Source: Methanohalophilus mahii DSM 5219
GTDB lineage: Archaea; Halobacteriota; Methanosarcinia; Methanosarcinales; Methanosarcinaceae
Reading direction: 5' to 3'
Assembly: GCF_000025865.1 (NCBI RefSeq)
Contig: NC_014002.1
Span: 806,001-870,000 of the forward strand
DNA length: 64,000 nucleotides
Every line of letters starts with the position of its first letter. Positions within the stretch are counted from its first letter, which is position 1. The position numbers and the translations under genes are program-made. Positions 44,377-47,625 of the stretch are shown one piece after another. The notes under the pieces were generated by a model. The model was not told the origin of the DNA and searched no databases. It worked only from the letters and a program-made list of their open reading frames with translations.

Positions 44377-47300
44377 TTAAAAGGGCTGGATTGGAATTGT
44401 GAATACAAAGGAATTTCCGGCTCCGGATTCACTCTCCACTTCTATCTCTCCGCCATGTAATTCTATATACTCTTTAGCAAGTGAAAGGCCCAGGTTACTA
44501 TCAGGTGGTTTCACCCCAGATTCGGAATATATTTCTTTGAAAGGTCGGAACAATTCTTCTAACTGGGTCGGAGAAATGCCGATTCCGGAATCATTTACTT
44601 CAAACTTCAGGTCATAACTGCTGTATTCCATACTGATATGTACATTTCTTCCTTCAGGGGTAAAGTGTATTGCATTGATGATGAGATTATATATTGCCTG
44701 CTTGATTTTTGCTTTGTCCACATTTATTTCCGGTATGTATTCAGGTATATCAGTAGTTATTTCAACATTTCTGTCCTCTGCGAAAGGTTTAAGGAATATC
44801 AAAATTTCATTGAGTAACTCAATAATGGAAAACATCTCAATATTGAGTTCCATTTTTCCTGCTTCAACATCTGATATTTCTAAAATATCATCAATTAAAT
44901 TCATCAAATGTTCCGCACTTTTTTGTATACCTTGAATGTGCTTTTGCTGTTTTGGATTTAATCTTCCATATATATTATTGTGAAGCATCTGGGTAAAACC
45001 AATTATATTACCCAATGAAGTTCTCAGTTCATGACCCAAATTGGCCTTTAACTCAGAGTTGGTTTTGCTTACTTCCCTGCCATGAAGCCTAGCTTCTGCA
45101 AGTTCTGCCTCAGCACGCTTGTGATCTGTAATATCCTTTACGAATTCGACTGTACCGGTAATTTCACCTGTGGTGGAGTCTTTTAATGGATAAGCCAGGA
45201 GTTCAAACCATTGTGGTTCCGGGTCTGGCAAACCCTGCACAATATTTCTTTCTGTTTCGCCTGTTTCCATGCACCTGATTACCGGGCAGGGTGTACAGGG
45301 GCTGTCCCTGTCATGATATGCTTCATAACATTTCTTGCCTTCAAGTGGTGTATTTTTTTCATACCATTTATTCATGGCATCATTTACACGTACGATATTC
45401 ATGTCAGCATCAAGTATGCTGACCCCGTCCTTTATGCTTTCAATGATGCTGTTCAGGAACAATTTGTTCTTGATCAATGCCTCTTCCATAAGTTTGGATT
45501 CTGTGGTATCCTTTGTGAAACCTAAATAACGGGTGTCTGAAAGTTTAGTAGAAGTTACACGCCACCATCTTCTGCTTCCATCCTTTCTTAAGAAATTAAA
45601 TTCAACATCAACATATCCTTTTTTGACGAGGGTTTCAAAGCCCTCAATGACTTTTTCATGATTGTCAGGAGGTATGAGGTCAATGAGATTCATAGAAAGG
45701 AGTTCCTCTTTTGAATAACCTGTAGTTTCACAGGCTTCTGTATTGACTTCAACATAATCTCCGTTTTCATCTGCAACAAAAACACCATCAGGAGCTTTAT
45801 TTATGTAATTCCTGAACTTCGCTTCACTTTCCCTAAGGGCGTTTTCCGTGTTCTTCATATCAGTGATATCGATCCCAGTAGCCGCTATATACCGGTCGCT
45901 ATCCTGTTTATCTTCATGGACCACGGCCTCCATCAACATAGGAAATTCGGTTCCGTCCTTATGGGTGTGCCAGATCTCACGATGCTTGTAATCAGAATCT
46001 TCAATGAGCTTATTTCTAAACCTGTATGTCTCTTCCAACTGGTTTTTATTATGAAAAATAGAAATGTCTTTTCCAATTACTTCTTCAGGAGTGTAGCCAT
46101 GAATATTTGCAAAATAATCATTTATGTATGTGATATTGCCATCAAGATCAAGGAGAAGGCTACCGTAATTGGCCCTGTCAACAATATTTTTGAATTTCCT
46201 TATTTCTTTTTGGGCTAATTTACGCTCTGTAACATCAATTCCTGAAGCGATTATGCCTGTAATTTCCCCCTTGTCATTTCTCAGCACAGAGTTGTGCCAT
46301 TCGATCACAAATTCTTTGTTACTGATGTTGAGGACCGGATTTTGATATCCCTGCACAATTTCTTCTTTTCCAGATACTATTTCATTTATTATTTGTCTGA
46401 CATGTGCTTTGTTTCTGGAGGGAATAAAATTATCGACCCAATTTTTCCCGACAATTTCTTCTTCAGGGTATCCAAGTATCTCTGAGGTCTTGAGGTTGGA
46501 AAAAAGAACGTTTCCTTCAGGGTCCAACACGACAAAAATGACCTCTGCGGCATCCAGGCATTCACCTGTCTTTTTCTTTTCTTCCCTTAATTCTTTCTCT
46601 TTTGCTTTCAGGTCACTTATATCCAGCATCGAACCAATAATACCGGCAACATTTCCATCCCTGTCATTATATGTTGCTTTGTAAAACCTGAATTCCTTAT
46701 TTTCTCCGTCTGCACACCGAACTTTAGTTTCATAAACCTGTTTTCTCTGCTTTTTTATAAGTTCCATGTCATGCTCATGGTAGATTTCAGCAAGTTCTGG
46801 AGGTATTTGTTCAGCAAGTTCAAACAATGTATGATTGACGGCTTTTTCACATGGGATTCCCAGTATTTCCTTACAAAATATTTTATTAAAACCTTTGTAT
46901 ACACCATTTATATCTTTATAAAATATAGGACCTGGAATAGTATCTATCAATTTTTTTAGGAATTTGGCCCGCTCGTCAAGAGAGATTTTCTTTTCTTCAA
47001 GTTCATTTTCACTTTTAACCCTTAAAATTAAGTTTCCTATCTGGCTGGCAATGGATTCCAGAACTATTTTTGTATCTTCAGCAATTCCTTCAGGATTAAA
47101 AGACGAGACGACAAATGAGGCAATTACCTCCCCATCTTCTTTCTTTATTGGAATGATGCCGATGGTTTTCATTTCTTTAATATATTCTTTGTCCTTGAGT
47201 GTGCCAGCAATTTCTTCGGGTGGCATGTAACGAATTTTACCTTCTTCAACGAGCTTTGCCTGCAATGAATCCGCAGGATAATGCTAGCTATTTTTCAAGA

Positions 47301-47502
47301 TGTCTTCAGGAACGTCTCCCCCATAAGCTATGAGATTCGATCCTTCATTTTTTGACCTCAGGTATATCGCTGTGACGTCAATATCTTCCAGTGAAAGAAT
47401 ATGTTTTGACAAAGAATGAAAAGCAGTTTCTAAATTGTTTGATGCGCCAAGCTCAATAGCAATATCTCTCTGCAAGGTTAACATCTTTTCCCTGTTCAAC
47501 AA
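44377..47502 (-). CDS. Large GAF-PAS5 histidine kinase with an in-frame TAG codon
   Basis: One frame runs from TTG 47502 (GGAG ahead) to TAA at 44377, broken only by TAG at 47284-47286 (codon 73). The part before it (72 residues, ALGASNN-like GAF start) and the part after it (IIPIKKEDGEVIASFVVSS) make a single GAF domain. Five PAS domains follow; the fifth has a Cys-rich insert (CYEAYHDRDSPCTPCPVIRC). Then comes HisKA (LGHELRTSLGNIIGF) and HATPase (NLIINAIHFT, VNDSGIGIS). No membrane helix is seen, so it is cytoplasmic. The TAG may be read as pyrrolysine, or may be a nonsense mutation leaving a shorter kinase from ATG 47265. Length with read-through is 1041 residues. Confidence 0.8.
47284..47286 (-). 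other. In-frame TAG codon within the GAF domain
   Basis: On the minus strand the codons around it are AAA AAT AGC TAG CAT TAT CCT. Upstream and downstream parts share the frame and one domain. TAG is not used as a stop by any secure gene in the window. Confidence 0.8.
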
Positions 47503-47625
47503 AGTACTCTCCAGTGTAAAGTTAATAATTTATAGGCATATAATGTTTTACATGACTATATTTTTGGTTATGTTATGTATATACATAAAAAAGTTGCATT
47601 TATTTTAATTTGTTGATTGTATTTG

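Follow-up and report, generated by a model that had tools for sequence, protein, structure and literature searches.

A recent in-frame TAG in a sensor histidine kinase gene of Methanohalophilus mahii, probably read as pyrrolysine

The window analyzed here, 64,000 nucleotides of the Methanohalophilus mahii DSM 5219 genome (NC_014002.1, positions 806,001 to 870,000), contains a gene for a PAS/GAF sensor histidine kinase (hereafter HK1) whose reading frame is interrupted by a single TAG. The features of the gene, in positions of the window, are as follows.

44377..47502, minus strand: HK1, gene for a PAS/GAF sensor histidine kinase; 1041 codons ahead of TAA, one of them an in-frame TAG
47507..47512, minus strand: Shine-Dalgarno sequence GGAGAG of HK1, kept in most orthologues
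47497..47499, minus strand: likely HK1 start codon TTG, aligned with the GTG of relatives
47282..47284, minus strand: TAG inside the HK1 frame at codon 73, residue 72 if counted from the likely start; the five orthologues have CAG
47026..47415, minus strand: GAF-like domain that includes the TAG, residues 30-159; Pfam match below threshold
46219..46557, minus strand: PAS domain, residues 316-428 (Pfam)
45859..46164, minus strand: PAS domain, residues 447-548 (Pfam)
45526..45819, minus strand: PAS domain, residues 562-659 (Pfam)
44857..45057, minus strand: HisKA domain, residues 816-882 (Pfam)
44386..44718, minus strand: HATPase_c domain, residues 929-1039 (Pfam)

Translation of the minus strand from 47502 to 44377 gives a single frame of 1041 codons with TAG 47284 as its sole internal stop, confirming the original prediction that the frame is the same on either side, and no further disabling lesion was found across these codons. 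As relatives use GTG at codon 2 behind a GGAGAG Shine-Dalgarno sequence, we place the likely start at TTG 47499 (codon 2), which would make the TAG residue 72. A Pfam search on the read-through protein identified HisKA (816-882) and HATPase_c (929-1039) above their cut-offs, domains that mark HK1 as a PAS sensor histidine kinase. The domain order first proposed, one GAF domain across the TAG followed by five PAS domains and a kinase core, holds for the core; PAS models match four significant stretches, five being suggested by spacing, and GAF_2 is a weak match on residues 30-159 (21.2 bits versus a cut-off of 28.6). The predicted structure of the GAF part has a mean pLDDT of 56, and below 50 for residues 60-109, too poor a model to locate residue 73. 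A search by sequence for a solved structure of HK1 found none.

We compared HK1 with its orthologues in five congeneric genomes (G001, G002, G004, G005 and G006). The G002 orthologue covers HK1 residues 2-1040 at 81% identity without a stop, and HK1 on either side of the TAG is therefore one gene; the other four lack one or more PAS domains (up to three) and keep the GAF part and the kinase. Codon 73 is CAG (Gln) in 5/5 orthologues, within the context AATATCCAGCATTAC, as against AATAGCTAGCATTAT around the TAG of M. mahii, and the TAG is conserved in none; more distant homologues have Ser, Arg or Gln at this variable site. Because all five orthologues have CAG, the alignments indicate that the TAG is one recent C-to-T transition on the short M. 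mahii branch and not a conserved pyrrolysine site, which bears out the recent point mutation that had been offered as the alternative to pyrrolysine. In two motifs, HELRTP and SEPGAG, M. mahii HK1 alone has Ser in place of Pro.

Codon substitution patterns suggest that the M. mahii gene after the TAG is under purifying selection equal to that of its relatives. Across codons 552-1041, omega is 0.294 on the M. mahii branch and 0.285 on the other branches, with omega = 1 rejected (LRT 22.8), and the PAS codons 297-551 give 0.246 for M. mahii (LRT 14.9). Relaxed selection on the M. mahii branch is thus not seen, the GAF stretch alone being uninformative: at codons 74-165 the branch is short, with 0.044 changes per codon, and omega = 1 is not rejected (LRT 0.95). 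With so short a branch and so few changes, any decay since the TAG arose may not yet be visible; these estimates exclude an old pseudogene, but not a very young one.

The M. mahii genome, a single contig of 2,012,424 bp, contains all five of the pyl genes whose presence was to be checked: pylT-S-B-C-D is complete at C1:300.5-304.8 kb, and the tRNA-Pyl anticodon is CUA. PF21360, tried as a probe for PylC, gave zero matches though pylC sits in the pyl cluster, reflecting the wrong choice of family and not absence of the gene. As positive controls, two mtmB genes carry the expected TAG, and in the sister species M. portucalensis pyrrolysine has been observed by mass spectrometry at the TAG of MttB (PMC4928046). 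A further MtmB-like protein (L101:1495-2868 (+)), 31% identical, has Val at MtmB's pyrrolysine position, making it a member of the MtmB family that lacks Pyl. Two observations had been named as speaking against pyrrolysine in HK1; of these, an ordinary codon with no TAG in the relatives is what we find, whereas absence of the pyl genes is not.

Secure genes of the window end only in TAA or TGA, as first noted (29/50 TGA, 21/50 TAA, 0/50 TAG). We extended the stop-codon census to 1.278 Mb of the genome (about 64%), in which 969 secure genes end in TGA (498), TAA (456) or TAG (15). Eight of these 15 TAG ends run on as coding sequence, leaving about 7 true TAG ends, some with a second stop within 0-5 codons. 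pylB (L069:6386-7447 (-)) is one of these roughly seven genes, with 39 weakly coding codons to the next stop; since it ends in TAG, the length of PylB could depend on its own product.

We then screened the same 1.278 Mb for every in-frame TAG, TAA or TGA flanked by coding sequence, using Pfam or orthologues to decide if a single protein runs across the stop. Outside the methylamine methyltransferases, TAG interrupts nine otherwise intact genes (HK1, HK2, HK4, HK5, citrate synthase, coaD, ksgA, an MFS transporter and a TPR protein), TGA one, and TAA none that could be proven, the sole spanning TAA case being the natural rpoA1/rpoA2 split. With events treated as independent, TAG accounts for 9/10 interruptions against an expected share of 0.38 (P = 0.0012), and for 9/13 if three doubtful TAA/TGA cases are counted against it (P = 0.024); cases without a domain comprise three TAA/TGA and one TAG. 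At the TAG of HK2 relatives have GAG, and the TAG of HK4 lies within one of two tandem PAS copies, the other copy having Lys. The TAGs of the MFS transporter (TAG289; L088:11155-12297 (-)) and the TPR protein (TAG91; L135:7600-8226 (-)) fall inside Pfam-covered stretches. Besides HK1 and HK5, M. mahii kinases with an in-frame TAG, at differing positions, are those at L081:10476-13169 (-), L136:15461-18640 (+) and L199:2151-3464 (-); the L136 kinase has a tandem PAS duplication not present in congeners. In HK3 (L127:10511-14218 (+)), a 1235-codon PAS/GAF kinase, a TGG codon of a PAS domain has become TGA. This interruption is either a genuine nonsense mutation or a recoding of another kind, and it suggests that nonsense mutations occur and persist in M. 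mahii kinase genes.

TAG also interrupts single-copy core genes, of which coaD is, together with HK5, among the strongest cases. Pantetheine-phosphate adenylyltransferase (CoaD) is generally regarded as essential. Its gene (genome C1:270750-271217; L153:10750-11217 (-)) is present once in M. mahii and is single-copy almost throughout the family. Codon 44 of the M. mahii gene, within the enzyme domain, is TAG (TAG44), against Gly, Glu or Gln in relatives; the M. mahii product still scores as this enzyme. The single-copy ksgA/rsmA (genome C1:1057876-1058679; L129:17876-18679 (-)) has TAG230, mostly CAG in congeners, with 37 conserved residues behind it. If both proteins are made, TAG in their sole genes calls for a constant supply of pyrrolysine. 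Citrate synthase (L084:9568-10671 (-)), with TAG61 in M. mahii, is found only as remnants in G001, G002, G005 and G006 (L073-L076) and is thus being lost within the genus; with this decay in several congeners it carries less weight as evidence than coaD does.

A kinase TAG that is shared between species occurs in HK5 (genome C1:1482160-1483830; L139:2157-3830 (-); L202:2573-4243), a PAS-GAF-HATPase kinase with TAG85 in its PAS domain. This TAG is common to M. mahii, G004 (93% identity) and a fragment in G006. A comparison of the M. mahii and G004 genes gives a dS of 0.28 and, for the sequence after the TAG, an omega of 0.118 (LRT versus neutrality 95.5), indicating that function was maintained downstream of the TAG for as long as the two lineages had it. 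The HK5 signal could also arise from internal initiation, which would hardly account for coaD. From these alignments HK5 is the best candidate for a pyrrolysine kept in signalling, and a better place to look for one than HK1. An HK5 paralogue in Methanohalophilus sp. RSK (L201:2267-3889 (-)) has its in-frame TAG elsewhere, in the GAF region.

With pylTSBCD present and TAG behaving as a sense codon genome-wide, pyrrolysine is the likeliest residue at the HK1 TAG. The sequences themselves supply the TAG, the pyl genes, the CAG of relatives, the few TAG ends, the excess of TAG among interruptions and the purifying selection; they give good support to TAG being a sense codon in M. mahii, and that HK1 contains pyrrolysine would follow from it with moderate confidence. 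The account we consider probable is that M. mahii uses TAG sparingly as a general sense codon and that HK1 is made at full length with a near-neutral Gln-to-Pyl change. Pyl-tRNA(CUA) would decode TAG wherever it is present, the organism having apparently nearly ceased to end genes with TAG; through a recent CAG-to-TAG transition a tolerant Gln in the GAF-like domain would have given way to pyrrolysine with the protein retained, and an HK1 of about 1040 aa would be made constitutively at full length, its pyrrolysine probably without a special role. For HK1 we infer actual read-through, its efficiency and near-neutrality. Pyrrolysine and recent mutation, which the original prediction posed as alternatives, are thus probably both true.

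If release factor instead mostly stops at TAG 47284, the recent mutation would be a nonsense mutation yielding a 72-residue peptide and a young pseudogene. This is unlikely, though we take it seriously: the TAG is unique to M. mahii where five relatives have CAG, another kinase of the same genome, HK3, carries a TGA, citrate synthase, also TAG-interrupted in M. mahii, is reduced to remnants in four congeners, kinase repertoires turn over (PAS domains differ among the HK1 orthologues), and two kinase-motif Pro residues, Ser in M. mahii alone, speak against the favoured account. However, HK1 has no second lesion and an omega equal to that of intact orthologues, interruptions are strongly biased to TAG, single-copy coaD has one, and HK5 is conserved together with its TAG. 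A sequencing error might be suspected where a single base in one strain decides, but the chance is negligible: the genome is finished, errors would not prefer TAG over TAA and TGA, and the HK5 TAG is identical in independent genomes.

Two further readings give the stop a role in expression. Production of full-length HK1 might be confined to times of ample pyrrolysine, which would tie signalling to methylamine use as first suggested; a review regards pyrrolysine insertion as competing with termination (PMC9499178), and the meaning of TAG varies with carbon source in the bacterium Acetohalobium (PMC8211752). We consider such regulation very unlikely in HK1, because the TAG is not conserved at this site, the same switch would starve coaD and ksgA, whose own TAGs would call for constitutive pyrrolysine, and we found no PYLIS or unusual structure after the HK1 TAG (fold z-score +0.5). 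Alternatively, termination at the TAG followed by internal initiation, at in-frame starts available at codons 80 (TTG), 93 and 111 (ATG), would yield a PAS-kinase without the GAF part; its kinase core would remain intact, which would also account for the downstream purifying selection. No Shine-Dalgarno sequence was found at a proper distance before codons 80, 93 and 111, however, an internal start would lie within the GAF domain, and coaD, whose one catalytic domain is cut in two by its TAG, would be left unexplained, making split expression hard to credit. We return to TAG as a general sense codon.

TAG as a general sense codon with few TAG terminators is also what M. mahii has in common with an archaeal 'Pyl code' that assigns every TAG codon to pyrrolysine, reportedly described by Kivenson et al. 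in Science in 2025. Like HK1, the methyltransferases MtmB, MtbB and MttB have an in-frame TAG in a pylTSBCD genome and tRNA-Pyl reading (predicted for HK1); their TAG is conserved and catalytic, whereas the HK1 TAG took the place of Gln in a single species, at a site that varies. UAG-containing sensory histidine kinases were listed in 2013 as candidates from M. acetivorans, M. mahii (as a pseudogene) and M. barkeri (cluster 16; PMC3639795). These resemble HK1 in being histidine kinases with a TAG in frame, one of them from M. mahii, and in being pyrrolysine candidates; unlike HK1 they are conserved between species, and the main-text account of the cluster gives no locus (PMC3639795), such that its M. 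mahii member may be HK5 or another paralogue, not HK1. The genome authors likewise proposed pyrrolysine for the M. mahii citrate synthase (Mmah_0479; PMC3017947), which shares with HK1 the genome and a TAG within an otherwise intact gene but is a metabolic enzyme. From what these accounts present, pyrrolysine kinases and the drift of TAG into genes had already been proposed earlier (PMC3639795, PMC3017947).

A more far-reaching possibility, which we regard as a long shot, is that TAG is fully reassigned to pyrrolysine across Methanohalophilus, essential metabolism (CoA synthesis, coaD) and many sensor kinases included, with the pyrrolysine in the PAS domain of HK5 kept between species for a function, possibly ligand binding. 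Single-copy coaD with its TAG offers a sharp test of full TAG reassignment in the genus. In a Pyl-decoding archaeon, an in-frame TAG should by default be taken neither for a pseudogene nor for a regulatory switch.
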